Origin: Stutzerimonas stutzeri
GTDB taxonomy: Bacteria; Pseudomonadota; Gammaproteobacteria; Pseudomonadales; Pseudomonadaceae
DNA length: 64,000 nucleotides
Reading direction: 5' to 3'
Assembly (NCBI RefSeq): GCF_015291885.1
Contig: NZ_CP036186.1
Span: 62,001-126,000, forward strand
This document shows, piece by piece, positions 8,137 to 23,092 of this stretch; position 1 is the stretch's first letter; the number at the start of each line of letters is the position of its first letter. The notes beneath the pieces were generated by a model. That model had not been told where the DNA came from and ran no database searches. It worked only from the letters and a program-made list of their open reading frames with translations. The position numbers and the translations under genes were made by a program.

Positions 8137-11115
8137 ATGGCCGGCCCGCCGATGAGTAATGCCGGCATCTCGACCCCCCACCGGATCTTCGCCCTTGGCA
8201 GCCTGCTACTGGTGCTGCTGTTTGGCGGTCTGGCCTTCAATGATTTTCGCGCCCGCGACGCGGCTTGGCATCTGGAAATCGAAAACCATGGTGAGCTGCA
8301 GAGCATGGCGCTGCAGAGTGCGCAGGTAAGTCAGCGTCGACAGGCCGATATGGTCGCCGCAGCCTTGGCCGGAAATGCCGAACTCCTGCGCCATTTTCGT
8401 CAGATCGATACTGCCCTGCGCGATGGACTGACGCTGGACGATCCGCAAGTCCAATTGCTGCGCCAGCGGCTGCGCACGACGCTGACACCGGCCTGGAGCG
8501 CCATGCAGCGCCACCAGGCCCTGCAGCTGCAGGTTTTCTGGGGCGAAGCCGGAATTGCTCTGCTGCGCATGCAGCAACCGGAACGTTTCGGCGATGCTGC
8601 CGCAACGCAGCGGCCGTTGCTGCAGCGTGTGCTCGACGAGGGTGTCGGGCAGTTCGGCATGGAGGTCGACGACCGGGGCGTCAGCAGTCGCGCCATCATT
8701 GCGCTGCGGGCAGCAGATGATCCTTCCAGCGACGTCATTGGCGCCCTGGAGGTTGGCTATAACGTGCTTCCGGAGTTGCCTGATCTCAGCGATCAACTCG
8801 CCGCTGGGTTGGCCTTGATCGTCAATCGCGATGCCGTGCATGCCGCTCAGCGTACGCCGCCCAGTGGCGTCCAGATGAGCGGTGACGGGCGCTGGCTGCT
8901 GATCGGCCACTCGGCGACGCAGATCCTGCACTGGTCACAGACGGGCATGCTGCCGGAGCCGGAAAGCGGCCCGGCCTCGCGCTTGCTCAGCGCTGACGGG
9001 CGCACTTACATGCTCAACCAGATTCCGCTTCACGGTGAGCGTCAGGCCGCGCCATCGCGGCCACTGCTGGCGGCGGCGCTGGTCTGGCGTGATATCAGCG
9101 CCATGCAGCGTGAACATCAGCAGGCCGAGCGTCGGCTGTTGATCAAATGGGGCCTGGCCTGGCTGGTCGTCGAAGCGCTGTTGCTAATGCTGGCGTTCCT
9201 GCTGCAGCGACGGGCCAGCGTGCAGCAGCAGTATCAGTTCGCTCAACAGCAGCAAGGCCGTCGGCGCCAGCGGCTGTTGGATCGGGCGCAGAAGATTGCC
9301 AGCCTGCTGCCAGGCGTGGTGTTTCAGCTCAAGCGCTTCCCCAGTGGTCGCTACGCCTTCCTATACGCCAGCGAAGGTGCGCGGGAGCTATACGGCATCG
9401 ACCCGCAGCGGTTGCTCGAGGATGCGCCCCAAGCGCTGGCTCATGTTCATCCCGATGACCTGCCTCGCCTGAAGGTCACATTGCTGCGCTTGGCAGCCGA
9501 CCCGGGAACCGGCGCGGTCGAATTTCGCATTCAGCATCCGCAGCGCGGCCTCCTCTGGGCCGAAGGCCGTGCGACGGCCGAACGGCTGCCCGACGGAACG
9601 GTGCTGTGGCATGGCTTCGTCACCGAAATCACGGAGCTGATGGAGGCAACCCGTGCGCTGCAGAAGAGCGAGAGCCGCTTCCGCGCCATGGTTGGCAACC
9701 TGCCGGGCGTGGTCTACCGCTGTCGCAACGATGGTCGCCGGCGCATGAGCTACCTCAGCGACGGCATCGAACGCCTGACCGGCTACCCGGCCAGCGATTT
9801 CGTCGGCGACCGCGTGCGCAGCTTCGCCAGCCTGATCCACGCCGACGACTTGCCGCTGGCCCGACAACATCCCGAGCAGGATACGTTCGAGAGTATCTAC
9901 CGGCTCACCAACGCCGAGGGCCGCACCGTGTATGTGCGCGAGAAAGCCCGCGTGCTGCACGAGCGCGACGACCCGGTCGGCTGGTGCGACGGCTTCATCT
10001 GGGACGTCACCGACCAGGCATTGGCCAAGGAGGAGATGCTGCAGCGCGAGCGTTACCTGAGCATGCTGATCGACAACGTGATCGACGCCATCATCATCAT
10101 CGACGCGCGCGGTGTCATCGAGACCTTCAACCACGCCGCCGAGCAGATTTTCGGCTACAGCAGCGAGGAAATGATCGGTCGCAACCTGTCGATGCTCATG
10201 CCCGAACCCGACCGCGGGGCCCATGACGGCTATCTCGAGGCCTACGATCGCCGCGGCGTTTCCCACGCACTGGAACAGAACCGCGAGCTCACCGCCCTGC
10301 GCCGCACCGGCGAAACCTTCACCATCGAGCTGCGGGTTTCGCAGATCAGCCACCACGGCGAGCGCAAGTTCATCGGGCTGGTGCGCGACATCACCGAGCG
10401 CAAACGCATCGAGCGGATGAAAAGCGAGCTGGTGTCCATCGTCAGTCATGAGCTGCGCACGCCATTGACCTCGATTTCCGGCGCGCTCGGTCTGATCGTC
10501 GGTGGCGCCTTGGGCGAGCCATCGCCCGCCATGCTGCAGATGCTGAGCATCGCCCATCAGAACAGCCAGCGCCTGGGCCGTTTGGTGGACGACCTGCTGG
10601 ATATGGACAAGCTCGTCGCCGGCAAGATGACGCTCGAGCTGCGCGAGCATTCGGTGGCATCACAGCTGCAGCTGGCTATGGGGGCCAATCATGCGTATGC
10701 GGCCACGCTCGGCGTGTACTTGGAGCTGCTGCCAATGCCCGAGCTGCAGCTGATAGCAGACGACGACCGGTTACAGCAGGTACTGGCCAATCTCATCTCC
10801 AATGCGGTCAAATTCTCGCCTGAAGGCGGCACCGTCTCGCTCGGCGCGCAATGCCGCGGCGACTGGGTGCGGATCAGCGTGCGTGATCAGGGCCCGGGCA
10901 TCGCGCCCGAATTCCACACACGGATATTCCAGAAGTTTTCCCAGGCCGACTCGTCTGATACGCGGCAGAAAGGCGGTACCGGGCTAGGCCTGGCCATCAG
11001 CAAGGAGCTGATCGAACACATGCATGGCCACATCGGCTTCGATTCCGAACCCGGCCATGGCGCCTGTTTCTGGTGTGAGCTACCGCTCGCGTCGGCGGCC
11101 AGCGAACAACCCTGA
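8137..11115 (+). CDS. Membrane sensor histidine kinase with Cache-like periplasmic domain and three PAS domains
   Basis: About 992 residues. Transmembrane helix near 17-34, a periplasmic region (35-335) resembling a double Cache sensor, a second helix near 336-358, then PAS domains at roughly 385-490, 508-625 and 640-755. A HisKA domain follows with phospho-acceptor His771 in IVSHELRTPLTS, and a HATPase domain ends the protein (DQGPGIAP, GGTGLGLAISKELIE). There is no attached receiver, so the receiver gene 48 bp downstream is the obvious partner. The ATG at 8152 is an alternative start; neither has a strong ribosome binding site. It is the first gene of a rightward block reaching 23.1 kb and closely resembles the kinase at 11627 in its C-terminal half. 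Signal unknown. Confidence 0.85.
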   Translation: MAGPPMSNAGISTPHRIFALGSLLLVLLFGGLAFNDFRARDAAWHLEIENHGELQSMALQSAQVSQRRQADMVAAALAGNAELLRHFRQIDTALRDGLTLDDPQVQLLRQRLRTTLTPAWSAMQRHQALQLQVFWGEAGIALLRMQQPERFGDAAATQRPLLQRVLDEGVGQFGMEVDDRGVSSRAIIALRAADDPSSDVIGALEVGYNVLPELPDLSDQLAAGLALIVNRDAVHAAQRTPPSGVQMSGDGRWLLIGHSATQILHWSQTGMLPEPESGPASRLLSADGRTYMLNQIPLHGERQAAPSRPLLAAALVWRDISAMQREHQQAERRLLIKWGLAWLVVEALLLMLAFLLQRRASVQQQYQFAQQQQGRRRQRLLDRAQKIASLLPGVVFQLKRFPSGRYAFLYASEGARELYGIDPQRLLEDAPQALAHVHPDDLPRLKVTLLRLAADPGTGAVEFRIQHPQRGLLWAEGRATAERLPDGTVLWHGFVTEITELMEATRALQKSESRFRAMVGNLPGVVYRCRNDGRRRMSYLSDGIERLTGYPASDFVGDRVRSFASLIHADDLPLARQHPEQDTFESIYRLTNAEGRTVYVREKARVLHERDDPVGWCDGFIWDVTDQALAKEEMLQRERYLSMLIDNVIDAIIIIDARGVIETFNHAAEQIFGYSSEEMIGRNLSMLMPEPDRGAHDGYLEAYDRRGVSHALEQNRELTALRRTGETFTIELRVSQISHHGERKFIGLVRDITERKRIERMKSELVSIVSHELRTPLTSISGALGLIVGGALGEPSPAMLQMLSIAHQNSQRLGRLVDDLLDMDKLVAGKMTLELREHSVASQLQLAMGANHAYAATLGVYLELLPMPELQLIADDDRLQQVLANLISNAVKFSPEGGTVSLGAQCRGDWVRISVRDQGPGIAPEFHTRIFQKFSQADSSDTRQKGGTGLGLAISKELIEHMHGHIGFDSEPGHGACFWCELPLASAASEQP

Positions 11116-11163: not shown

Positions 11164-11550
11164 ATGGCCGAGCTCAGGCGCATCCTTCACGTTGAAGACG
11201 ACCCATCGATTCAGGCGGTGACCAAACTCGCCCTGGAAGCTATTGGCGGTTACCAGGTGCTGTCCTGCTCCTCCGGCGCACAGGCGCTGGAAGAGGTCGA
11301 AGCCTTCGCCCCCGATTTCATCCTGCTGGACGTGATGATGCCGGGTATGGACGGCCCGCAGACGCTGCTCAAGCTGCGCGAGCGAATCGACCTGGAGCGG
11401 ATTCCGGTAACATTCATGACGGCCAAGGTTCAGCCGGGCGAGATCGAGCACCTGCGCAAGCTCGGCGCGCGCGACGTGATTGTCAAACCTTTCGACCCGA
11501 TGCAGCTGGCCGGGCAGATTCGCAGCATTTGGCTGACTGGCCGATACTAA
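11164..11550 (+). CDS. Single-domain response regulator (receiver only)
   Basis: 128 residues, entirely a CheY-like receiver: acidic pocket Glu11-Asp12-Asp13 (LHVEDDPS), phospho-acceptor Asp56 (ILLDVMMPGMDG), Thr86 (FMTAK) and Lys108 (VIVKPFDP). No output domain, so it must act by protein contact or by passing phosphate on, perhaps to the Hpt domain of the protein at 14417. GGAG lies 7 nt before the ATG. It follows the first kinase and is a close relative of the receiver at 14035, which follows the second kinase. Confidence 0.92.
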   Translation: MAELRRILHVEDDPSIQAVTKLALEAIGGYQVLSCSSGAQALEEVEAFAPDFILLDVMMPGMDGPQTLLKLRERIDLERIPVTFMTAKVQPGEIEHLRKLGARDVIVKPFDPMQLAGQIRSIWLTGRY

Positions 11551-11626: not shown

Positions 11627-14038
11627 ATGGAGTCACCGCAAGCAATCCCGGCGCCGATGCCATCCGCCGCGCAGCCACGCGAACTCTCGCGCCTGGCGGC
11701 CCTGCTGCGTTACGAAATCCTCGATACGCCCGAAGAAAGCGCCTTCGACGACTTCACCGCGCTGGCCGCGCAGATGTGCGACACCCCGATTGCACTGATC
11801 TCGCTGGTCGATGACCGCCGCCAGTGGTTCAAGAGCCGGGTCGGCCTGGACGTCAGCGAAACCCCGCGTGACATCTCTTTCTGCACCTACACCATCACCG
11901 GCGAGCAGATCTTCGAGGTACCCGACGCGCTGCAGGATCCGCGCTTTCGCGACAACCCGCTGGTGCAGGGCGATCCGCACATCCGCTTCTACGCCGGTAC
12001 GCCGCTGACCTCGCCGGACGGCCACAACCTCGGCACGCTGTGCGTCATCGACCGCAAGCCGCGGCGGCTGAGCAGCGAACAGCGGGAAACCCTAGAACGC
12101 CTGGGCCGCCAGGTGATCCGCCTGTTCGAGCAGCACCTGCTGGCGCACCGGCATGCCGAGCAGGCGGCATTGCAGCAGGCGATCCTCGACAGCGCCTCCA
12201 GCGCCGTGCTGATCACCCGCCCGGACGGCATCGTCACCAGCGTCAACCCGACCGCCGAACGCCTGCTCGGCTACAGCGAGCAGGCGCTGGCCGGCCACCC
12301 GCTGACCACTGCCCTCTTTCGCCACGAAGCGCTGGAGCGGCGCGCCAAGCTGCTCTCCAGCGAACTCGAGATGCCGGTGGAAGCGGGATTCGCAGTGCTC
12401 ACCGCGCCGCTGCACCTTGGCCGCCGGGAGATGTCCGAGTGGCGCCTGCGCCACCAGAGCGGCAGCGAAGTGCCGGTGCTGCTGGGCGTCACCGCCATCC
12501 ACGATGAACAGGAACAGCTGCGTGGCTACCTGATCAACGCCTACGACCTGGCCTACCAGGAACAACTGCAGCTGCGCCTGCAGCAGATCGCCGCGCAGGT
12601 GCCGGGCATGCTTTTCCAGTTTCACTGGCGTGGCAACGGCAGCTCCTGCTTTCCCTACGTCAGCGAAGGGGTCGAGCAGATCTACGGCCTCAGCCCGGGG
12701 CAGCTGGCCAGCAGCTTCGCGCCCATCGTCGGGCGCGTGCACGCACTCGATCGCAGCACCCTGCTGAGCAGCATCCGCAAGGCCGCCGCCGAGCTCACGC
12801 CGTGGCACAGCGAGCACCGCGTCGACCACCCACGCAAGGGCCTGATCTGGGTCGAGGCGCGCGCCACACCGCTGCGCCAGGTCGATGGCTCGGTGCTCTG
12901 GCACGGTTTCGTCACCGACATCACCGCACGCAAGGCCGAGCAGCTGGACCTGGACAAGCAGCAGGAAATGAACCGGCGTCTGCTCGAAGCGTTGAGCGAG
13001 GCGGTGATCGCCTGCGACGCCGAGGGCAATCTGACCCTGTTCAACGAGAAGGCCAAGCAATGGCACGGCGCCGATGCCGCGCCGGTGTCACCGGACGAAT
13101 GGGCCAGCCATTACCAGCTGTACCGGGCCGATGGCGTCACGCCGCTGCAGCCGGAAGAGATCCCGCTGCGCCGCGCCCTTGGCGGCGAACACGTGATCGA
13201 TCACGAGATGGTCCTGCTCAGCCAGGGCACGCCGCGCCATGTGCTGTCCAACGCCGATCCGCTGTACACCTCCGATGGCCAGCTGCTGGGCGCTGTCGCC
13301 GTGCTGCACGACATCACCGAGCGCAAGCGCATCGAGCGTCTGCAGCGCGAATTCATCTCCACGGTCAGCCACGAGCTGCGCACGCCGCTGACCTCCATCA
13401 CCGGCGCGCTGGCGCTGGTCTGCTCCAATGTCATGGGCGAGGTTCCCGGGCAGATGCGCGAGCTGCTGGACATCGCCCAGCAGAACAGCCAGCGCCTCGG
13501 GGCACTGATCGACGACCTGCTGGACATGGACAAGCTGCACGCCGGCAAGATGCGCTTCGACCTGCTCGAGCAGCCGCTACTGCCGCAGCTGGAGCTGGCC
13601 CTGCGCAGCAATGGCAGCTACGCCGAACGCCATGGCGTGCAGCTGCGCCTGGGCGACTGCCCGGCGGTGCAGGTGGAAATCGACGCCATGCGCCTGCAGC
13701 AGGTGCTGAGCAACCTGCTGTCGAACGCCGCGAAGTTTTCGCCGCCTGGCGAGCAGGTCGAACTGTCGGCCCGCATGCGTGACGGCCATGTGCGGGTCAG
13801 CGTCCGAGACCGGGGCCCAGGGATTTCCGACGAATTCCGTGAACGGGTATTCCAGAAGTTCGCCCAGGCCGATTCGTCCGACAGCCGCCAGCAGGGCGGC
13901 ACCGGCCTCGGTCTGGCGATCAGCAAGGAGCTGATCGAGCACATGGGCGGACAGATCGGCTTCGAATCCGCACCCGGCCAGGGCGCCTGCTTCTGGTTCG
14001 AGCTGCCCGTCCGGGGCGAGACCAAGGAGAGTTCGTGA
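11627..14038 (+). CDS. Cytosolic GAF-PAS sensor histidine kinase
   Basis: 803 residues without a membrane segment. A GAF domain (about 25-170; VDDRRQWFKSRVGLDVSETP is typical of this GAF subgroup) is followed by PAS regions at roughly 175-305, 315-435 and 445-565. HisKA carries His582 in VSHELRTPLTSITG, and the HATPase domain has RDRGPGIS and GGTGLGLAISKELIE. The kinase core is strikingly similar to that of the kinase at 8137 (shared LDMDKL..GKM, DSSD.RQ.GGTGLGLAISKEL), pointing to duplication of a kinase-receiver pair with replacement of the sensory half. AAGG precedes the ATG by 8 nt. The stop overlaps the next start by four bases. Confidence 0.88.
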   Translation: MESPQAIPAPMPSAAQPRELSRLAALLRYEILDTPEESAFDDFTALAAQMCDTPIALISLVDDRRQWFKSRVGLDVSETPRDISFCTYTITGEQIFEVPDALQDPRFRDNPLVQGDPHIRFYAGTPLTSPDGHNLGTLCVIDRKPRRLSSEQRETLERLGRQVIRLFEQHLLAHRHAEQAALQQAILDSASSAVLITRPDGIVTSVNPTAERLLGYSEQALAGHPLTTALFRHEALERRAKLLSSELEMPVEAGFAVLTAPLHLGRREMSEWRLRHQSGSEVPVLLGVTAIHDEQEQLRGYLINAYDLAYQEQLQLRLQQIAAQVPGMLFQFHWRGNGSSCFPYVSEGVEQIYGLSPGQLASSFAPIVGRVHALDRSTLLSSIRKAAAELTPWHSEHRVDHPRKGLIWVEARATPLRQVDGSVLWHGFVTDITARKAEQLDLDKQQEMNRRLLEALSEAVIACDAEGNLTLFNEKAKQWHGADAAPVSPDEWASHYQLYRADGVTPLQPEEIPLRRALGGEHVIDHEMVLLSQGTPRHVLSNADPLYTSDGQLLGAVAVLHDITERKRIERLQREFISTVSHELRTPLTSITGALALVCSNVMGEVPGQMRELLDIAQQNSQRLGALIDDLLDMDKLHAGKMRFDLLEQPLLPQLELALRSNGSYAERHGVQLRLGDCPAVQVEIDAMRLQQVLSNLLSNAAKFSPPGEQVELSARMRDGHVRVSVRDRGPGISDEFRERVFQKFAQADSSDSRQQGGTGLGLAISKELIEHMGGQIGFESAPGQGACFWFELPVRGETKESS

Positions 14039-14424
14039 ACAGACAGCTCAAGCGCATCCTGCACGTCGAGGACGTTCCTTCCATTCAGGTGGTGACGCGC
14101 ATCGCCCTGGAAAAGATCGGCGGCTTCGAGGTGCTCAGCTGTCCGTCCGGCCAGGCGGCCCTGGACCAGGTTCAGGCCTTCGCCCCCGACCTGATCCTGC
14201 TCGATGTGATGCTGCCGCAGATGGATGGCATCGAGCTGGTCCGCCAACTCGGCGATCTGGTGGACCTGCAGCAGATTCCGGTGGTCTTTCTCACCGGCCA
14301 TCTGCAGCCCGAGCGGCTGCAGGAGCTGCGCCAGCTCGGTGTGCGCCAGGTGTTGAACAAACCCTTCGACCCCCTGCAGCTGGCCTCCCAGCTGCAGCAG
14401 GTGTGGGAGGCCGAGCATGGATGA
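14035..14424 (+). CDS. Single-domain response regulator (receiver only), second copy
   Basis: 129 residues, CheY-like receiver with GTG start overlapping the kinase stop (GTGA), so translation is probably coupled. The motifs LHVEDVPSIQVVTRIALEKIGG and ILLDVMLPQMDG match the receiver at 11164 almost position by position. The acidic pocket reads Glu-Asp-Val, so one of the usual two aspartates is replaced by Val; the phospho-acceptor Asp and the LNKPFDP Lys are present. It overlaps the next gene by eight bases, tying kinase, receiver and Hpt-GGDEF protein into one translational unit. Confidence 0.9.
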   Translation: MNRQLKRILHVEDVPSIQVVTRIALEKIGGFEVLSCPSGQAALDQVQAFAPDLILLDVMLPQMDGIELVRQLGDLVDLQQIPVVFLTGHLQPERLQELRQLGVRQVLNKPFDPLQLASQLQQVWEAEHG

Positions 14425-16057
14425 GCGTGCCCGCCTGGCGCTGCAGGAACAGCTCACCCAGCTTGAGCAGCAGTTTGGCGAACGCCTGCAGGCGGACCTG
14501 GCAGAACTGGCAACGCTCGCCCGTGACCTGCAGCAGACCCGCGCCACCGGCAGCCGCCGCCAGCTGATGCTGAGCGTGCGCGAGCGACTCCATCGCCTGG
14601 CGGGCGCGGCCGGGACCTTCGGTTTCGCCAGCCTCGGGGACAACGCCCGGCAGCTCGAACAGCGCGCCGATCGCTGGCTGGACTCGGCCAAGCCCGGCAG
14701 CCGCGCCGCCGATGCCTTCGCCGCCGCCCTGCTGCAACTGGCCAGCGAGACACCCGGGCAGGAGCGCGAAGGCGCAGCGGCGCTGCCGGTGCACCACGAA
14801 GAGCCGGCGCCGGGCTGCCGCATCTACCTGATGAAGCGCGACCCGATCGCCGCCACCAGCATGGCGGTGACCCTGCGCAACTTCGGCTACATGGTCAGCC
14901 AGTGGCATGATTTCGCCGCGCTCGAGCAGGCCCTGGCCAACGAGCTGCCCGATGCGCTGATCGTCGGCATCGAGCATGAAAGCGAGTTCGATGCACTGGC
15001 CGCGCTGCAGCAGAGCCTGGAGCAGCCCCTGCCGCTGCTGGTGATCCACGATCGCAACGACTTCACCAGCCAGCTGGCCGCGGTGCGCGCCGGTGCCCAG
15101 GGCTTCTTCGTCCGCCCGCTGGACATCACCCAGCTGGAAAACAGCCTGGAGCGCTGCCTCGACCGCCAGCAGGGCGAGCCCTTCCGTGTGCTGATCGTCG
15201 ACGACGACGCCGAGCTGGCGGCGCGCTACAGCCTGGTGCTGCGCAACGCGCAGATGCAGGTGCAGACCCTCACCGAACCGACCCGCGTGCTGGACGCCAT
15301 GCGCAGCTTCAACCCCGAGGTCGTGCTGCTGGACGTCAACATGCCGGAATGCTCGGGCCCGGAGCTCGCGCAGATGATCCGCCTGCATGACGAGTGGCTG
15401 TGGGTGACGATCATCTACCTGTCGGCGGAAACCGACACCCACCGGCAGATGGCCGCCCTGCTCAAGGCCGGCGACGATTTCATCACCAAGCCGATCAGCG
15501 ACAGCGCGCTGGTGGCCGGTGTCTATTCGCATGCCCAGCGTGCCCGCTCGCTGAGCACCGCGCTGGCCCGCGACAGCCTGACCGGCCTGCTCAAGCACGC
15601 CGACATCAAGGAACAGCTGGCACTGGAGGTGCAGCGCAGCAGCCGCAGCGGCAAACCGGCAAGCGTGGTGATGCTCGACCTCGACCATTTCAAGCAGGTC
15701 AACGACACCTATGGGCACGCCGCCGGCGACAACGTGATCCGCGCCCTGGCCAACCTGCTGCGCCAGCGCCTGCGTCGCATCGATAGCCTCGGCCGCTACG
15801 GCGGCGAGGAGTTCGTCGCGGTACTGCCGGAATGCAGCGCGCTGCAGGCCAGGCGCATCTTCGACGAGATCCGCGTGCGCTTCGCCGCCCTGACGTTCAA
15901 TGCGGGCGACCATCAGGAATTTCGCGTCACCTTCAGCGCCGGCATCTGCGAAACCGATGAGCACAGCGCCGCCAGCGTCCTGCTGGAGCGCGCCGACCAG
16001 GCGCTGTACCTGGCCAAGCACCAGGGCCGTAATCAGGTGCAGGTCGCCGAGCGCTGA
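14417..16057 (+). CDS. Hpt-REC-REC-GGDEF diguanylate cyclase (PleD-like output with phosphotransfer domain)
   Basis: 546 residues in four modules. Residues 1-110 form an Hpt domain with His59 in LHRLAGAAGTFG. A first receiver (about 135-250) is degenerate: the phospho-acceptor position reads LIVGIE, with Gly in place of Asp. A second receiver (about 256-370) has LIVDDD and Asp306 in VVLLDVNMPE. The GGDEF domain ends the protein with GGEEF at 462-466 and RRID as a plausible inhibitory site five residues before. The layout suggests that phosphate from the neighbouring kinases and free receivers reaches Asp306 or His59 and tunes c-di-GMP synthesis. It may supply c-di-GMP to the polysaccharide genes at the end of the block; that link is inferred. 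Confidence 0.9.
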   Translation: MDERARLALQEQLTQLEQQFGERLQADLAELATLARDLQQTRATGSRRQLMLSVRERLHRLAGAAGTFGFASLGDNARQLEQRADRWLDSAKPGSRAADAFAAALLQLASETPGQEREGAAALPVHHEEPAPGCRIYLMKRDPIAATSMAVTLRNFGYMVSQWHDFAALEQALANELPDALIVGIEHESEFDALAALQQSLEQPLPLLVIHDRNDFTSQLAAVRAGAQGFFVRPLDITQLENSLERCLDRQQGEPFRVLIVDDDAELAARYSLVLRNAQMQVQTLTEPTRVLDAMRSFNPEVVLLDVNMPECSGPELAQMIRLHDEWLWVTIIYLSAETDTHRQMAALLKAGDDFITKPISDSALVAGVYSHAQRARSLSTALARDSLTGLLKHADIKEQLALEVQRSSRSGKPASVVMLDLDHFKQVNDTYGHAAGDNVIRALANLLRQRLRRIDSLGRYGGEEFVAVLPECSALQARRIFDEIRVRFAALTFNAGDHQEFRVTFSAGICETDEHSAASVLLERADQALYLAKHQGRNQVQVAER

Positions 16058-16121: not shown

Positions 16122-17078
16122 GTGTTTCCGCTATCGCGCGGCGGCCAGGGTTCCATGCAGTCTCCCCCGCGGAAGGAGTCCGGTTTGCCCGCAAGACTCG
16201 CGATCGGTTGGCATTCAATCGCATTTCTGGCTGCGTTCGCGCTGCTCGCCGCCCTTGGCTGGCAGGGCAAGCGAACCCAGGAAACGCTGCTGCAGACCAA
16301 TCGGGCCGTCAGCCATAGCCTGGAGGTCATCACCTCGGTCCAGGCCATCCTCTCCTCCCTGCAGGACATCGAAACCGGCTCGCGCGGTTTCATCCTGACC
16401 GGCGATGCCAGCTACCTCGAACCCTACGAGCGCGGCCTGAATCAGCTGGAGGGCTATCGGCGTAGCCTGGAACAACTGGTCGAAGGCCGCAGCTATCCCG
16501 ACCAGCGCTGGTTCCGCACGCTGGATGCAACCATTGCCGAACGCCTGCAGGTGGCTGCCGGCAATGTCCAGGCGCGCCGCGACGCCGGCCTGCAGGCGGC
16601 CGCCGAGCGCTTGCGCGGCGCCGGCGGCAACCTGCTGATGGATCGCCTGCGGGCGCTGCTCAACGCAGTGGAACAACAGGAGCGGCGCGAGCTGAAAGCA
16701 GCCAGCAGCGCCGTTGCCCAGACGACCGAGCGTGCCCAGCGTCTGGCCCTCATCGGCAGCCTGGTGGTGGTCGCGCTGCTTCTCATCGCCTTCTGGGCGG
16801 TACACCGTAATCTGCGCATCCGCCAGCAGCTGGCCGGCGCGGCGCAGGCAGGCGAGGCTCGGCTCGGAGCGCTGCTGCAGGCCATTCCGGATTACCTCTA
16901 TGCGGTGGACCACCGACAGCAGGTATCCAGCCTGGCCGCGGGAACGGCTCGCCGGCGCCCCAGCCCGCGGCCATCGAACCCCTGCTGCACGACCTGCTCC
17001 AGCAGCACGAAGACAGCGGTCTGCGGCAGAACACCTGGTGCGAGGTGCAGACCCGGCGCACTTTCGAGGTTCGCCTGA
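16122..17078 (+). pseudogene. CHASE3 sensor kinase, N-terminal part of a gene split by a frameshift
   Basis: This frame encodes a transmembrane helix (HSIAFLAAFALLAALGW), a CHASE3 periplasmic domain (SVQAILSSLQDIETGSRGFI, GLNQLEGYRRSLEQL), a second helix (LALIGSLVVVALLLIAFWAV) and the first strand of a PAS domain (AIPDYLYAVD). After about 16935 it turns into arginine- and serine-rich nonsense and stops at 17078. The continuation lies in another frame and is open from at least 16922. The junction must fall between about 16911 and 16950 and equals a one-base loss (or two-base gain). Start: GTG at 16122 has GGGAG five bases upstream; ATG at 16155 is possible. It is either a real disruption or a sequence error. 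Confidence 0.75.
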
Positions 17079-19060
17079 TGCCCACCGGGCTGGGCGACCA
17101 CCTGGCGATCGCACGGGACATCAGCGAGCTGCAGCGCAGCCGTGACAGCCTGCACGACCAGCAGTTGTTCCTGCGCCGGGTGGTGGACACCGACGACAAC
17201 CTCATCTTCGTCCGCGACGCCCAGGGCCGCTTCCTGCTCTGCAACACCGCGCTCTCCGCCCTGCTCGACGTGCGTCCGCAGGATATCGAGCAGCGCCACC
17301 CCGACGAGGTGCCTTCCGCTCGCCTGCTGCGACCGCTGCTGCTGGGCGACGACGAACTGGCGGCCCTGGCGAGCAGCAGCGGGGAGCTGCGCACCACCGA
17401 GGTCGCCCTGACCGACGCCCACGGCACCGAGCATTGGTTTCAGGTGGTCAAGCGACCGCTGCGCATCTCCGCGCGCACCTGCCATGTGGTCACGGTGGCG
17501 GTGGACGTCTCCCTGCGCCGGCGCATGGAGCAGATGAAGACCGAATTCATCTCCACCGTCAGCCACGAGCTACGTACCCCGCTGACCGCCATTCGAGGCG
17601 CGCTCGGCATGCTGATCGGCGGTATCGCCGGGCAGCTCAGCGACGAGGCCCGTCCGCTGCTGACCATCGCGCACAAGAACAGCGAGCGGCTGGTGCGCCT
17701 GATCAACGACATCCTCGATATCGAGAAGCTGGAAGCGGGCCGCCTGGCGTTCAACCTGGGCCGACACGACGTGCGGCCGCTCGTCCAGCAGGCGCTGTCG
17801 GACATCACGCCGTACGGGCAGGACTACGGCGTCACCCTGGAATTCCTCGACGCCCCCGAGCTGGCCTCCAGTGAAGCAACCCTCGACCCTGACCGCTTCG
17901 CTCAGGTGATGGCCAATCTACTGTCCAACGCAATCAAGCATTCCCCCGCCGGCGGACGCGTGACGGTCGACCTGCGACGCAGCGGCGAAAGGCTCGTGAT
18001 CGGGGTGCAGGATCGCGGGCCCGGCATACCAGAAGCCTTCCGCTCGCGCATCTTCGAGCGCTTCGCCCAGGCCGATTCGTCCGATGCCCGTCAGCGCGGC
18101 GGTACCGGGCTGGGGCTGGCCATTACCCGCTCGCTGGTCCAGCAGATGAACGGCAAGATCGGCTTCGATTGCCAGCCGGACCAGGGCACGCGCTTCTGGC
18201 TGCAGCTGCCGCTGGAGGAACACGCCCAGCCGCTCCAGCCGCAGGCACCGGCGCAGCCACTCAGCCTCGGCTCGGCGCCGCAGCAGACGCCCCTTATTCT
18301 GATCCTCGAACCCGATTGCCACGCCGCCGAGCAGCTGGCCGAGGCGCTGCACCAGCACGGCTATGCCACGCTGATCGCCCATGCTGCCGCCGAAGCACGC
18401 GAACTGCTCGGCCAGCACCGCGTCCAGGCGCTGACCCTCAGCCCGGCGCTGGACGACGAGAACAGCGTGGCCTTCCTGCAGAGCCTGCGCAGCCAACACC
18501 ACTACCGCAACCTGCCGGTGCTGATCGTCAGCGTGCAGCCGCAGCGCCGGGATGAGGATGACGGCCTGCTGCGCGGCGGTGCGGTAGGCGTGATCGACTG
18601 GCTGCACAAGCCGATCGACCCCTCCCGCGTCATGGAGGTGATTCGCGCCTGCCTGCAGCTCGGCGGGTCGAAACCGCGCATCCTGCACGTGGAGGACGAC
18701 GACGACCTGCGCGTACTGCTGGCCAGGCAGATCGCCATGCTCGACGTCGAGCTGGCCGGCGCCGCCACCCTGCAGGAGGCGCGTCAGCTGATCAGCGCGC
18801 AGCCCTTCGATCTCGCCATCATCGACCTGATGCTGCCCGACGGCGACGGCACCGAGCTGTTCGACCAGCTGGCGCAGAGCATTCCGCCCCCACCGGTGAT
18901 CATCTTTTCCGCGCTCGACACCCCGATCCAGGACAACCGCCTGGCGCTGCGCCAGCTGGTCAAGTCCCGTCACGACGGCGACGAGCTGGCCAGGCTGATC
19001 CAGCACCTGTTGCAGCACTGGCCACCGGGCCACACTCACTCTGACGAGGTTCATGCATGA
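17045..19060 (+). CDS. Sensor kinase C-terminal part: PAS, HisKA, HATPase and two receivers (continuation of the frameshifted gene at 16122)
   Basis: 671 codons from the first possible start (GTG at 17045, no ribosome binding site), but meaningful coding begins earlier, at about 16950 (EPLLHDLLQQHEDSGL). It holds a PAS domain, HisKA with VSHELRTPLTAIRG, HATPase with DRGPGIP and GGTGLGLAITRSL, a first receiver-like domain in which the acceptor region reads LTLSPALDDEN and lacks the usual Asp, and a second receiver with VEDDDDLR and IIDLMLPDGDG. With the N-terminal part it would make a hybrid kinase of about 970 residues. The stop overlaps the next start by four bases. As sequenced, this half is unlikely to be translated well. 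Confidence 0.8.
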   Translation: MQTRRTFEVRLMPTGLGDHLAIARDISELQRSRDSLHDQQLFLRRVVDTDDNLIFVRDAQGRFLLCNTALSALLDVRPQDIEQRHPDEVPSARLLRPLLLGDDELAALASSSGELRTTEVALTDAHGTEHWFQVVKRPLRISARTCHVVTVAVDVSLRRRMEQMKTEFISTVSHELRTPLTAIRGALGMLIGGIAGQLSDEARPLLTIAHKNSERLVRLINDILDIEKLEAGRLAFNLGRHDVRPLVQQALSDITPYGQDYGVTLEFLDAPELASSEATLDPDRFAQVMANLLSNAIKHSPAGGRVTVDLRRSGERLVIGVQDRGPGIPEAFRSRIFERFAQADSSDARQRGGTGLGLAITRSLVQQMNGKIGFDCQPDQGTRFWLQLPLEEHAQPLQPQAPAQPLSLGSAPQQTPLILILEPDCHAAEQLAEALHQHGYATLIAHAAAEARELLGQHRVQALTLSPALDDENSVAFLQSLRSQHHYRNLPVLIVSVQPQRRDEDDGLLRGGAVGVIDWLHKPIDPSRVMEVIRACLQLGGSKPRILHVEDDDDLRVLLARQIAMLDVELAGAATLQEARQLISAQPFDLAIIDLMLPDGDGTELFDQLAQSIPPPPVIIFSALDTPIQDNRLALRQLVKSRHDGDELARLIQHLLQHWPPGHTHSDEVHA

Positions 19061-19445
19061 GCGAATCCGCCAGCAAGCGCATCCTCATGGTGGAAGACGA
19101 AGAAGACATCGCCTTCCTCATCCGTTACATGCTCGAACGCCACGGTTTCGTCGTCGACCATGCCGCCGATGGCCGCCAGGCGCTCGACCACTTCGCCCAG
19201 GCCGCCCCACCGGACCTGACCCTGATGGACATCATGCTGCCCTATCACGACGGTCTGGAGTTGATCGAACGGCTACGGGCACAGGCCGGCTGGGAAAGCG
19301 TGCCGGTGCTGATGCTGACCGCCAAGGCACGCGAGGTGGATATCGTCCGCGCGCTGGAACTGGGCGCCGACGACTACGTAACCAAACCCTTCCAGCCGGA
19401 GGAACTGCTGGCACGCATTCGTCGCCTGCTGAGGGGCGCCGGTGA
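19057..19445 (+). CDS. Receiver-domain response regulator with a probable frameshift at its C-terminus
   Basis: Receiver domain with VEDEED, phospho-acceptor in TLMDIMLPYHDG, LTAK and DDYVTKPFQPEELLARIRRLL. As sequenced, the frame does not stop there: it runs on to 20025 as about 190 codons of Ala/Gly/Arg/Pro-rich translation that overlaps the next gene out of frame. Adding one base in the short G run at about 19433-19436 would end the protein at the TGA of 19443-19445, inside a GTGA start-stop overlap with the next gene, as elsewhere in this operon. The end given assumes that correction. No DNA-binding domain, so it is a receiver-only protein and another possible link in the phosphorelay. 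Confidence 0.72.
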
Positions 19446-20578
19446 AGCGCGCGCTGCTGCTGCTTGCCCTGGCGATACCCTGCACCACGGCTTTGGCGGA
19501 TATCGCCACGGCCGAGCGACAGGTGCAGGCGCAGCAACTGGACGCTGCCGAAGCGACCCTGCGCGCACACCTGGCGCAGCACCCGGAAGACGCCGACGCG
19601 CAGTTCCTGCTGGCCCGGGTGTTGAGCTGGCAGGGCCGGCCGGAACAGGCCTTGCCGATCTACCAGCGCTTGCTGCGCCAGCAGCCGGACAATGCCGACT
19701 ACCTGCTCGGCGAGGGCCAGGCACTGCTCTGGGCCGGGCGCCCGCAACGCGCGCTGGCGTCGTTGGAACGGGCCGCCAGGATCGCGCCGGACTACGCCGA
19801 GGTGCAGCAGGTGATCCAGCAGGCACGCGCCGCGCTGACCGTGCCCACCACGGCGACCGCCCCGCTACCCGTGACGGCCGCCGCGACCAAGCGCCGTCAC
19901 GAGCTGGAGATCTCGGCGCGTCAGGACTGGCTGGACAGCGGCTTCGACAACTGGCGCAGCCAGCGCCTGGATTACACCTCGACCCGGCCGGAAAGCCTTG
20001 GCTGGTACGGTGCGCTGCTGCGTGAGCAGCGCTTCGGCGAATGGGACGAAGGCGTCGAGGCCGGCGCGGTGATTCCGCTCGACGACAACTGGACGCTGCA
20101 GCCGGAGGTCGGCTATCAGCCTTCACCCTATTTCCTGCCCGAGTGGCATGCCGATCTGCGCCTGCAACGGCGCCTGCCGGACGGCTACCTCGGTGCCGTC
20201 AGCGTTCGCCGCACCGAGTACGAGACCACCCGCGTCGACCGCCTTGCGCTGAGCGCCGAGCGTTACTGGAACGCCTGGCGCGCCGGCTACACCCTGAACG
20301 TGACCGACGTGGCCAACGCCGGCACGCCGATCGGCCACGACCTGGCGCTGGACTACTACTACCGAGGGCTGAGCTACGCCGGCCTGCGCCTGACCGTGGG
20401 CGAGGAAGAGGCGGTGGAAGAGCAGCAGCTGATCACCAGCGACGTGCGCGCCGTCAGCCTGCAGGGTCGTCACTGGTTCGACAGCCGCTGGGCGCTGAGC
20501 TGGGAAGTCGGCTATCACCAGCAGGGCAGCTACTACGACCGACAGTGGCTGCAGATCGGCCTGCGCCATGCGTTCTGA
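19442..20578 (+). CDS. TPR and YaiO-family outer-membrane beta-barrel protein
   Basis: 378 residues from a GTG. A signal peptide (MKRALLLLALAIPCTTALA) precedes TPR-like repeats at about 22-130 (LRAHLAQHPEDADAQFLLARVL, then LPIYQRLLRQQPDNADYLLG). From about 150 the chain has alternating polar/aromatic strands typical of a YaiO barrel (YLGAVSVRRTEYETTRV, DLALDYYYRGLSYAGLRLTV) and ends in ...LQIGLRHAF, a terminal Phe as expected for an outer-membrane barrel. The TPR-plus-barrel plan resembles exopolysaccharide exporters such as PgaA. In E. coli yaiO lies near a family 2 glycosyltransferase gene (yaiP). Here the glycosyltransferase is two genes downstream, so export of its polymer is the likely role. 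Confidence 0.85.
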   Translation: MKRALLLLALAIPCTTALADIATAERQVQAQQLDAAEATLRAHLAQHPEDADAQFLLARVLSWQGRPEQALPIYQRLLRQQPDNADYLLGEGQALLWAGRPQRALASLERAARIAPDYAEVQQVIQQARAALTVPTTATAPLPVTAAATKRRHELEISARQDWLDSGFDNWRSQRLDYTSTRPESLGWYGALLREQRFGEWDEGVEAGAVIPLDDNWTLQPEVGYQPSPYFLPEWHADLRLQRRLPDGYLGAVSVRRTEYETTRVDRLALSAERYWNAWRAGYTLNVTDVANAGTPIGHDLALDYYYRGLSYAGLRLTVGEEEAVEEQQLITSDVRAVSLQGRHWFDSRWALSWEVGYHQQGSYYDRQWLQIGLRHAF

Positions 20579-21692
20579 CCTGCTGACCGGCTGCCCTCCC
20601 TGGCTGTGCGAGGCGCCCGCTCGGCTCTGGCTGCACGTCTGGCCGGAAGACCGCATGTTGCAGCTGGCGCTGTACTGCGCCTTCGGCCTCGGGGCGTTGA
20701 CGCTGCTGGTGCTGCTGCAGGTGCTGCTGCTCGGCGAACTGTCGCGCCGGCGTGCGGTGCGCCGGCAGCAGTTCAACGAACAGTGGCGCCCCTACTTCGC
20801 CCTCTGCAGCCTCAGCGATGACGTGCCGACATCCCACGCGTCGCTGCCGCGGCGGCACCAGCTCTGGTTTCTGCTGCAGTGGAACCGCACCCAGCTGCAG
20901 TTGCGCGGCGCCGCCCGCGAGCGCATGAACCGCGCACTGGTCGCCCTGGGGATGGATCGTCAGGCGCTGCTCCTGTTACGGGGGCGGGTGCGCAGCAAGC
21001 TGATCGGCCTCACCTGCCTGCGCCATCTGGCCGACCCCACCCATTGGGACGCGGTGCAGCCGCTATTGCTCAGCCGCAACGCCATCGTCGCCCTGGCCGC
21101 CGCGCAGACGCTGGTGGCCATGGACCCAGCAAAGGCCATGCAGCTGATCCTGCCGGCGGCGGTGGAACGCCCCGACTGGGCGTTGCCGCGCCTCGTCAGC
21201 CTGTGCCAGCAGGCCGGTGAGCAGGCAGTGACCACGCCGCTACTGATCGTGCTGTCCAGCTCGCCGGACCCGCGCCGCGAGCGGCTGGTCGGCCTGCTGG
21301 TGCATGGCGACCCGCGCCATGCCGCGCCCTGGGCGCGGGCACGGCTGGACCAGGGGGCGCCTGTCGAGCAGCTGCAGGTGGCGCTGCGCTGCCTCAGCGA
21401 GCTTGGCGACCCACGCGACCGCCCGCGCCTGCTGCGCGCCCTCGGCCACGAGCAGGAGGGCGTGCGCCTGGCCGCCCTGCTGGCGCTGCACAAGCAGGCA
21501 CGTCGGGAAGACAGCGAGCTGTTCCTGCCGCTGCTCGCCTACCGCAGCTGGTGGGTGCGCCAGGCCGCCGCCGATAGCCTGGCGACGTTGCCCGGCGCAT
21601 CCCCGGACGCGCTGCAGCAGCTGCTCGAGCAGGTGCACGACCGCTACGGCAGGGATGCCCTGCGCCGGGCCATCGCGGAGGTGCGCCGGTGA
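20568..21692 (+). CDS. HEAT-repeat membrane protein of the polysaccharide cluster
   Basis: 374 residues. One strong transmembrane helix (about 33-55, YCAFGLGALTLLVLLQVLLL) follows a short N-terminus. The rest is alpha-helical, with HEAT/PBS-lyase-like repeats (LIGLTCLRHLADPTHWDAVQ, AIVALAAAQTLVAMDPAKAM, LRCLSELGDPRDRPRLLRAL, VRLAALLALHKQA). The ATG at 20568 overlaps the previous stop by 11 bases; ATG at 20655 would remove 29 residues and put the helix at the N-terminus. The stop overlaps the next GTG by four bases. HEAT proteins are scaffolds; sitting between the exporter and the synthase, it may be a synthase partner or a docking platform. No enzymatic motif seen. Confidence 0.75.
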   Translation: MRSDLLTGCPPWLCEAPARLWLHVWPEDRMLQLALYCAFGLGALTLLVLLQVLLLGELSRRRAVRRQQFNEQWRPYFALCSLSDDVPTSHASLPRRHQLWFLLQWNRTQLQLRGAARERMNRALVALGMDRQALLLLRGRVRSKLIGLTCLRHLADPTHWDAVQPLLLSRNAIVALAAAQTLVAMDPAKAMQLILPAAVERPDWALPRLVSLCQQAGEQAVTTPLLIVLSSSPDPRRERLVGLLVHGDPRHAAPWARARLDQGAPVEQLQVALRCLSELGDPRDRPRLLRALGHEQEGVRLAALLALHKQARREDSELFLPLLAYRSWWVRQAAADSLATLPGASPDALQQLLEQVHDRYGRDALRRAIAEVRR

Positions 21693-23092
21693 CGGTCGAC
21701 TGGCTGTGGTGGCTGCAGGTCGCCTTCATTCTCTATTTCCTGCTGCTCAACGGCATGTACCTGCTGCTCAATCTGCTGTCGATGGGCAGCCTGATGGGTT
21801 ACATCCGCCAGCGCGCGGAAACCGGCGAGCTGGCGCCTTATCTCGGCGTCGAACCGCCGGTGTCGGTGCTCATGCCGGCCTTCAACGAAGAGGCGACGAT
21901 CCGCACCTCGGTGCGCTCGATGCTGCAGCTGCAGTACCCCGAATTCGAGATCGTGGTGATCAACGACGGTTCGAAGGACAGCACCCTGGCCGTGCTCATC
22001 GAGGAATTCGACCTGGTGCCGCACCCTGAGCCGTTGCGCCAGGCCGTCGCCCACCAGCCGGTGCAGGCCATCTATCGCTCGCGCCGCTACGCCAACCTGC
22101 GCGTGGTCGACAAGGCCAACGGCGGCAAGGCCGATGCGTTGAATGCCGGTATCAATGCCGCGCGCTACGGCCTGTTCTGTGGCGTCGACGCCGACTCCAT
22201 CCTGCAGCGCGACAGCCTGTTGCGCGTGGTGCAGCCCTTCCTCGAAGACGAGCGCACCATCGCCGCCGGCGGCACCGTGCGTATCGCCAATGGCTCGCAG
22301 GTGCGCGGCGGCTTTCTTATCCAGGCCGGGTTGCCCCGCAACTGGCTGGCGCGTTTCCAGATCGTCGAATACCTGCGTGCGTTTCTCTTCGGCCGTCTCG
22401 GCTGGTCGCCGCTCAATGCCGTGCTGATCATCTCCGGGGCCTTCGGCCTGTTCGACCGCGAACGGGTGATGGCGGTCGGCGGCTATCGCACCGATACCGT
22501 CGGCGAGGACATGGAACTGGTGGTGCGGCTGCACCGCTATCACCGCGAAAGACGCATCCCATACCGCATTCGTTACCTGCCCGATCCGATCTGCTGGACC
22601 GAATGCCCGGAAGACCTCGGCACCCTCGGCCGCCAGCGCAGCCGCTGGCAACGCGGCCTGGCCGAAAGCCTGAGCCGGCATGCGCGGCTGGCCTTCAGCC
22701 TGCGTGGCGGTACGCCGGGCTGGCTGGCCTGGCCGTTCATGGCACTGTTCGAGTGGATCGGCCCGCTGATCGAACTGGTCGGCTACGGCTTCATGCTCGG
22801 GGGCTTTGCCTTTGGTGCGGTGTCCTACGCCGCGCTGGCCGCCTTCCTGCTGGTGGCGATCGGCATGGGCATTCTGCTGTCGGTCAACGGCCTGCTGCTG
22901 GAAACCATGTCCTTCCGCGTCTACAGCCGTCGACGCGACATGCTGCAGCTGTTTCTGATGGCCGTGCTGGAGAACTTCGGCTACCGCCAGCTGAATACCG
23001 TCTGGCGCTGCCGCGGTCTCTGGCAGTGGTTCTCGCGGCGTAAACACCAGTGGGGCGTGATGCGCCGCAGCGGGCAGTGGGGGCAAAGCTAG
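21689..23092 (+). CDS. Processive family 2 glycosyltransferase (PgaC/BcsA-like polysaccharide synthase)
   Basis: 467 residues from a GTG coupled to the previous gene. N-terminal transmembrane helix (about 5-30), then a GT-A domain with PVSVLMPAFNEEATI, NDGSKDST, the metal-binding DAD at 167-169, GED at 272-274 and QRSRW at 316-320, the Q..RW motif of processive beta-glycan synthases. Further membrane helices at about 345-410 form the translocation channel. There is no PilZ domain, so any c-di-GMP control must act through a partner, as with PgaC-PgaD. It should polymerise a nucleotide sugar and push the chain across the inner membrane. No deacetylase gene was found nearby; the sugar is unknown. 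Confidence 0.9.
   Translation: MTVDWLWWLQVAFILYFLLLNGMYLLLNLLSMGSLMGYIRQRAETGELAPYLGVEPPVSVLMPAFNEEATIRTSVRSMLQLQYPEFEIVVINDGSKDSTLAVLIEEFDLVPHPEPLRQAVAHQPVQAIYRSRRYANLRVVDKANGGKADALNAGINAARYGLFCGVDADSILQRDSLLRVVQPFLEDERTIAAGGTVRIANGSQVRGGFLIQAGLPRNWLARFQIVEYLRAFLFGRLGWSPLNAVLIISGAFGLFDRERVMAVGGYRTDTVGEDMELVVRLHRYHRERRIPYRIRYLPDPICWTECPEDLGTLGRQRSRWQRGLAESLSRHARLAFSLRGGTPGWLAWPFMALFEWIGPLIELVGYGFMLGGFAFGAVSYAALAAFLLVAIGMGILLSVNGLLLETMSFRVYSRRRDMLQLFLMAVLENFGYRQLNTVWRCRGLWQWFSRRKHQWGVMRRSGQWGQS

Follow-up and report, generated by a model that had tools for sequence, protein, structure and literature searches.

A HEAT-repeat protein paired with a synthase-like family 2 glycosyltransferase, often downstream of receiver-domain genes, in bacteria and haloarchaea

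Introduction

According to the sections of PMC7112194 considered here, synthase-dependent exopolysaccharide systems comprise a synthase, a cyclic di-GMP (c-di-GMP)-binding domain or a co-polymerase, periplasmic modifying enzymes and a tetratricopeptide repeat (TPR)/outer-membrane pore. We analysed a 64,000-nucleotide stretch of the Stutzerimonas stutzeri genome (assembly GCF_015291885.1, contig NZ_CP036186.1, positions 62,001 to 126,000; hereafter called the window), in which the genes of a YaiO-type barrel protein, a HEAT-repeat protein and a family 2 glycosyltransferase (GT2) follow one another. The linkage between the HEAT and GT2 genes is near absolute, and whereas described synthase-dependent systems centre on c-di-GMP, the nearby signalling gene here mostly carries a phosphorylatable receiver (REC) domain. 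We consider it slightly more probable than an even chance that this locus specifies an exopolysaccharide machine of the synthase type, controlled by a phosphorelay, in which the REC protein binds the HEAT protein, the partner of the GT2, and thereby switches the GT2. If this is true, the locus represents a widespread unnamed polymer machine in which the synthase has a partner of a new kind and two-component signalling acts directly on polymer production, and it gives a function to part of the proteins annotated as 'HEAT repeat domain-containing' and 'YaiO family'.

Results and discussion

The three-gene unit and its closest described relatives

The open reading frames of the unit overlap by 11 and then by 4 bp, in exact agreement with the coordinates of a first-pass annotation made from the sequence alone:

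19442-20578, forward strand: YaiO barrel gene, 378 residues, with a signal-like N-terminal segment, approximately 3.5 TPRs and a predicted 14-strand barrel; candidate outer-membrane exporter.
20568-21692, forward strand: HEAT gene, 374 residues, with one N-terminal hydrophobic helix (residues 37-55) followed by HEAT repeats, which the charges around the helix place on the cytoplasmic side.
21689-23092, forward strand: GT2 gene, 467 residues; putative polysaccharide synthase of the HEAT-associated family, as judged from its sequence and structural model.

Pfam and NCBIfam searches identified TPR and YaiO domains in the barrel protein (PF19413, E 3.4e-26, score 92.7 for a curated cut-off of 23.9; TIGR04390, E 1.9e-41, score 142.5 for a cut-off of 32), HEAT_2 in the second protein (E 2.1e-11) and Glycos_transf_2 in the third (E 8.3e-23). 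The gene order barrel-HEAT-GT2 is preserved among homologues. Comparison of 14 Stutzerimonas loci supports the HEAT start at 20568 by a Met residue and a CPxWLC-like stretch, and a later start at Met30 was rejected. As the first-pass annotation had also claimed, neither PilZ nor deacetylase domains are found by Pfam among the scanned genes of the window operon.

Several features of synthase-dependent systems have counterparts at this locus. The inner-membrane synthase is matched by the motifs and predicted fold of the GT2, and the TPR and outer-membrane pore by the TPRs and the predicted 14-strand barrel. In contrast, neither the GT2 nor the HEAT protein harbours a known c-di-GMP domain, although there is a GGDEF gene in the operon, and we propose that the c-di-GMP domain or co-polymerase is replaced by, or hidden in, the HEAT and REC proteins. 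Because the scanned operon genes include no periplasmic modifying enzyme, we consider that the locus works like synthase-dependent systems without filing it as a member.

The poly-N-acetylglucosamine systems PgaABCD and IcaADBC resemble it in combining a TPR-barrel exporter with a GT2 synthase and a partner in the membrane. Of three E. coli GT2s, PgaC comes closest to ours, with 28.5% identity over 284 residues, and TIGR03937 (PgaC/IcaA) is the best NCBIfam match of our GT2, yet with 139.9 bits for a cut-off of 422.3; the barrel reaches 23.5 bits with the PgaA model, for a cut-off of 366.65. Membership of the Pga/Ica systems was rejected on the basis of these scores. The PgaB deacetylase and PgaD are absent from the scanned operon genes (the only part of the genome searched for them), which encode HEAT and REC proteins instead. 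The GT2 also differs from the cellulose synthase of BcsA/BcsC systems by its lack of PilZ; it gives 49.5 bits with the CelA model (cut-off 699.1), and Bcs membership was rejected on both grounds. The profile match to the solved BcsA is weak (E 5e-12).

The first-pass annotation had likened the locus to E. coli yaiO/yaiP. The yaiO-yaiX-yaiP(-yaiS) locus likewise has genes for a YaiO barrel and a GT2 close to each other, but the likeness is weak: YaiP scores 66 bits with our GT2 family model as compared with 526-534 for the distant members L051 and L137, and the K-12 locus, which includes a yaiS deacetylase gene and a yaiX pseudogene, has neither HEAT nor REC genes. Membership was therefore rejected for the low YaiP score and the missing HEAT gene. 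In that locus (L189, 4070-8617), the putative deacetylase gene yaiS adjoins yaiP, and IS2 interrupts yaiX. By annotation, the c-di-GMP-controlled NfrA/NfrB system of E. coli also comprises a GT2 and an outer-membrane protein; it was rejected because NfrB scores 17 bits with the family model. Hyaluronan synthases (Chlorella virus, Xenopus) are the best full-length fold matches of the GT2, though at 14-17% identity, and we know of no HEAT partner for them.

The HEAT-GT2 pair is a widespread putative polymer-synthase module without description in the open-licence literature that we searched, which is no proof that none exists in print. It was found in Pseudomonadota, Bacillota, Bacteroidota, Deinococcus and haloarchaea, and thus spans at least four bacterial phyla in addition to the latter. 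The host genera include Mesorhizobium, Devosia, Erythrobacter, Deinococcus, Emticicia, Bacteroides, Planococcus and Legionella, along with three haloarchaea.

Linkage between HEAT and GT2 genes

In order to collect loci irrespective of the HEAT gene, we used GT2-only searches of taxonomically drawn genomes. They yielded 12 hits among 148 genomes of the family (E <= 1e-60) and, at E <= 1e-40, 17/369 in the class, 15/349 in the phylum, 1/121 in the phylum of the genome harbouring L041 and 23/249 in that of the genome harbouring L042. The draws overlap, with the genome of the window present in the first three, and one of the 23 hits, already known through its HEAT gene, was not counted. Altogether they gave 62 distinct GT2 places, 60 of which have a HEAT gene within 1.5 kb, as detected with a local model derived from five proteins, of which three (from the window, L174 and L178) belong to genomes that were counted. 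An independent check with Pfam identified HEAT_2 in 66 of 68 genes located directly 5' of GT2 genes, a set that includes plasmid loci and three HEAT-found loci; for comparison, there are two genes with HEAT_2 above the cut-off in the whole genome of the window.

A set of 58 larger loci drawn through the GT2, without those of the window genome, G064, G096 and G129, comprises 51 loci with at least 35% GT2 identity, six with lower identities, and L183. The HEAT gene is adjacent or fused to the GT2 gene in all 51 of the former and in five of the six with lower identities. By the local model, it is on the same strand in 47 of the 51, the remainder being L129, L132 (HEAT_2 E 4.9e-9 by Pfam) and the fusions of L178 and L181, in which HEAT and GT2 share a single open frame. 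As the latter two are sisters in the tree, they probably represent one fusion event, and two independent fusions were rejected. In the reverse test, GT2 genes adjoin 38 of 39 HEAT-found genes, L041 being the exception. Thus the co-occurrence check proposed in the first-pass annotation came out in favour of the pair from both sides. A HEAT neighbour was also found, mostly by annotation, for all 12 plasmid-borne relatives opened (H1, H4-H13 and H17) from a list of 427 records, that of L048 matching under the family cut-off. In addition, among 18 Stutzerimonas genomes, the GT2, HEAT and YaiO genes are all present in nine, including that of the window, and all absent from the other nine.

A number of loci weigh against this linkage. 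In L129, the adjacent HEAT gene (HEAT_2 E 2.2e-12) is convergent with the GT2 gene. L121/L183, whose GT2 gene is frame-broken, shows a weak HEAT_PBS match only (E 0.006), and no HEAT gene was found at L152, at L090/L148 (30% identity) or at L186-L188 (27-30%). The plasmid-borne relatives H14, H16 and H20 (27-30% identity) have no HEAT neighbour. L152, an additional GT2 of the L042 genome, shares a 998-residue frame with a gamma-glutamyltranspeptidase domain.

The GT2 protein

The DAD, GED and QRSRW motifs reported in the first-pass annotation are present in the GT2. Residues N92-S95, D167, D169, D274, Q316, R317, R319 and W320 are each conserved in 53-57 of 57 family members; the Glu of GED is below 90% in this set, yet invariant in a 64-row alignment. 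The predicted model (pLDDT 87.7, pTM 0.88) has a full-length hyaluronan/cellulose-synthase-like fold, with hyaluronan synthases leading the Foldseek ranking (E 3.4e-17). By its motifs and modelled fold, the GT2 thus resembles processive synthases, with which the first-pass annotation had grouped it.

It is improbable, in our view, that the GT2 is instead a non-processive transferase decorating a lipid or surface glycan, the barrel then serving at the surface or in assembly, without polymer export. The top VIA score of the model does go to an archaeal mannosyltransferase (PcManGT type), which we take to be an enzyme that transfers single sugars rather than a polymer synthase, and this counts against processivity. 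However, the VIA alignment of hyaluronan synthase is longer (393 vs 341 residues), Q316, R317, R319 and W320 are conserved in 53-56 of the 57 members, the best Foldseek match of the TPR-barrel model is BcsC (E 1.9e-10, with a TM-score of only 0.38), and the operon genes that were scanned include none for a lipid carrier. Resolution of the GT2 phylogeny is poor, and we therefore do not claim a single origin or a transfer history. One tree omits rows L005-L024 and the duplicates L039, L040, L042, L154 and L159-L161; a second tree, in which 18 of 62 inner branches are starred, used a smaller selection.

Receiver genes and the placement of the HEAT protein

The gene directly 5' of the barrel gene encodes a complete REC domain:

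19057-19445, forward strand: REC gene, candidate synthase switch; Response_reg E 7.7e-32, domain at residues 9-122, with D58 as the acceptor, T88 and K110.

REC or GGDEF genes are found upstream in 44 of the 51 loci with at least 35% GT2 identity. An automatic count of same-strand chains gave 40 (REC in 38, GGDEF in 4), to which we added L125, L178 and L181, with same-strand REC genes at most 2.4 kb upstream, and L172, with a Response_reg match. REC genes are also upstream in all three haloarchaeal loci. In the Bacillota-side loci L162-L164, L174 and L176, and less clearly in L175, the gene preceding HEAT exceeds the length of a single REC and codes for a REC domain with an N- or C-terminal extension. 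In L164 (10503-11450), this protein has a DivIVA-like N-terminus (PF05103, E 7.8e-8), a possible hint of polar localization. In a set of 85 nearest-REC sequences with many near-identical entries, 82 conserve the acceptor Asp, 82 the Lys and 83 the Thr/Ser.

These data bear on the possibility that the REC genes are mere neighbours resulting from the clustering of two-component genes, and that the unit consists of HEAT and GT2 only. We regard it as very unlikely: seven of the 51 loci have no REC or GGDEF gene upstream, and the genome of the window has anomalous kinase and REC frames (see below), but REC genes adjoin the unit in hosts as distant as haloarchaea and rhizobia, with the acceptor residues kept.

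An N-terminal hydrophobic helix is predicted in 64 of the 68 proteins encoded directly 5' of GT2 (two of the 68 not being HEAT proteins), and in 56 of those the flank on its C-side is the more positive. Positively charged flanks lie on the cytoplasmic side according to the positive-inside rule, which places the HEAT repeats in the cytoplasm. We also correlated tree distances for 27 of 53 loci, at <75% GT2 identity and with the species tree uncontrolled. The correlations are 0.80 for GT2-HEAT, 0.72 for HEAT-REC and 0.60 for GT2-REC, and the partial correlations 0.66, 0.51 and 0.05, respectively, with HEAT-REC exceeding GT2-REC in 95.8% of bootstraps (94.8% with p-distances). This is the pattern predicted by a REC-HEAT-GT2 chain, and the sequence distances thus fit a position of HEAT between REC and GT2. 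From the predicted cytoplasmic location of the repeats and these distances, we propose a role of signal adaptor for the HEAT protein.

A precedent by role is the HEAT_PBS taxis protein OE2401F of Halobacterium. In the sections of PMC2666748 considered here, it is required between phosphorylated CheY and the output machine, the archaellum, and its demonstrated partners are CheD and OE2402F.

The first-pass annotation viewed the HEAT protein as a replacement for PgaD. It is indeed a constant partner of the GT2, but it need not be only a PgaD substitute. In a PgaD-like scheme, its helix would complete the channel, the HEAT-GT2 interface would sense c-di-GMP, and the RECs would act only on the diguanylate cyclase. 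Consistent with this scheme, the operon holds a GGDEF gene, GGDEF genes are near 13 of 22 Bacillota-side loci, and in L170 and L171 a GGDEF gene immediately precedes HEAT, in the place of a REC gene; the GT2 family has one N-terminal hydrophobic segment as compared with two in PgaC; and a c-di-GMP-binding domain or co-polymerase belongs to the systems described in the consulted sections of PMC7112194. Nevertheless, the upstream chain includes REC far more often than GGDEF (38 vs 4 of 51), in the three haloarchaeal loci as well, Pfam detects no known c-di-GMP domain in HEAT, and the HEAT distances track those of REC beyond GT2. We thus consider the PgaD-like scheme rather unlikely.

Proposed mechanism

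The computations cover the genes themselves, the linkage and fusion of HEAT and GT2, the linkage to REC/GGDEF genes, the topology and synthase fold as predicted, and the presence or absence of the genes as a unit; beyond these, we infer processivity, secretion, REC-HEAT contact and gating. In the phosphorelay model that we favour, the GT2 would be an inner-membrane processive synthase that polymerizes a nucleotide sugar and translocates the chain through that membrane. Its constant partner would be the HEAT protein, with the membrane helix beside the synthase and the alpha-solenoid in the cytoplasm. Histidine kinases would phosphorylate the REC protein, which would dock on the solenoid and thereby switch the GT2; a second input would come from the diguanylate cyclase. 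In diderms, the TPR/YaiO barrel would carry the chain through the periplasm and the outer membrane, while monoderms and archaea would do without it.

A stricter version, in which the phosphorylated REC on the membrane-anchored HEAT protein directly opens or closes the processive GT2 in both bacteria and archaea, with no need for c-di-GMP binding by the synthase, is put forward tentatively, at somewhat less than an even chance. The REC-HEAT-synthase arrangement suggests an undescribed way to switch polymer production on and off. The compact polysaccharide machine of the first-pass annotation thus holds as regards its synthase-like nature; it is not self-contained, given the REC/GGDEF genes upstream, and its barrel appears optional.

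The barrel protein

The AlphaFold2 model of the barrel protein (pLDDT 87.7, pTM 0.62) shows 14 strands, as compared with only six peaks in a hydrophobic-moment strand count. The second gene 5' of GT2 codes for YaiO in 26 cases, Response_reg in 21 and GGDEF in 6 (64 of the 68 loci scanned; L049, L134, L148 and L173 omitted). With a local model, no YaiO match was found in the Bacillota-side loci L162-L182, and therefore the barrel looks like an optional outer-membrane add-on of diderms to a HEAT-GT2 core.

Upstream signalling genes and frame anomalies

The genes for kinases, RECs and an Hpt-REC-GGDEF protein precede the barrel gene on the same strand, with small overlaps or gaps:

8137-11115 and 11164-11550: a further kinase gene and a REC gene, ahead of the GAF-PAS kinase gene.
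11627-14038, forward strand: GAF-PAS sensor histidine kinase (Pfam GAF, PAS, HisKA, HATPase_c), overlapping the next gene by 4 bp.
14035-14424, forward strand: stand-alone REC, upstream copy (Response_reg E 1.3e-23).
14417-16057, forward strand: Hpt-REC-GGDEF protein, probable diguanylate cyclase (Hpt E 1.8e-5, Response_reg E 5.8e-26, GGDEF E 5.8e-43).
16122-19060, forward strand: CHASE3-PAS-HisKA-HATPase-REC hybrid kinase, split by a frame break into overlapping open reading frames (16122-17078 and 17045-19060).

By eye, the translation of the Hpt-REC-GGDEF gene contains GGEEF. The hybrid kinase is a single open reading frame of 819-999 residues in 21 of 23 relatives. In L011 and L014, it is open only as a 546-residue piece, as compared with 671 residues in the window, and the break sites thus probably differ; sequencing errors may nevertheless account for these breaks. 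The adjacent REC frame of the window does not terminate where the barrel gene begins. It overruns that start in a different frame from the barrel gene and remains open to 20025, 200 codons beyond the domain, whereas the REC stop is 7-19 codons past the domain in all 35 HEAT-found relatives (L004-L038). The split kinase and the open REC frame could reflect either a real change or an assembly error. As the missing REC stop affects the signalling genes of the window strain and not the family-wide evidence, it leaves the likelihoods of the various readings unchanged. The long barrel frame of L005 does not include REC. One 437-residue homologue, P0344, harbours REC (PF00072) and YaiO domains in one frame and may be a natural fusion or a frame slip.

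Other neighbouring genes and variant loci

On the 3' side of the GT2 gene are an aldehyde dehydrogenase gene on the opposite strand and then an omega-aminotransferase gene. A promoter and terminator scan of the locus gave no signal exceeding those of shuffled sequences. A role in anti-phage defence was rejected, as PADLOC returned a weak HEAT-ARM match only (E 8e-7) and no match for the other two proteins.

Clues to the donor sugar from neighbouring genes are mixed, with glmS and a nucleotidyltransferase gene in Halosolutus, and nucleotide-sugar dehydrogenase and epimerase genes in a Legionella sub-clade. The sub-clade of L051, L135, L136 and L137 combines YaiO-HEAT-GT2 with nucleotide-sugar epimerase genes, which hint at a different donor sugar, in a same-strand chain devoid of REC; L051 also has a dehydrogenase gene beside them. 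L050 and L182 have CotH-kinase genes 5' of HEAT-GT2 with no REC gene found, and represent a different sub-type. The former additionally includes genes for a polyphosphate-polymerase-domain protein, a DUF4956 protein and a 689-residue protein without a Pfam match. L173 encodes a 1081-residue protein whose HEAT repeats carry a long N-terminal fusion. Finally, L048 (Emticicia) and L133 (G239) have LTA-synthase- or sulfatase-type genes near HEAT-GT2, whose products perhaps add phospho-groups to the polymer.

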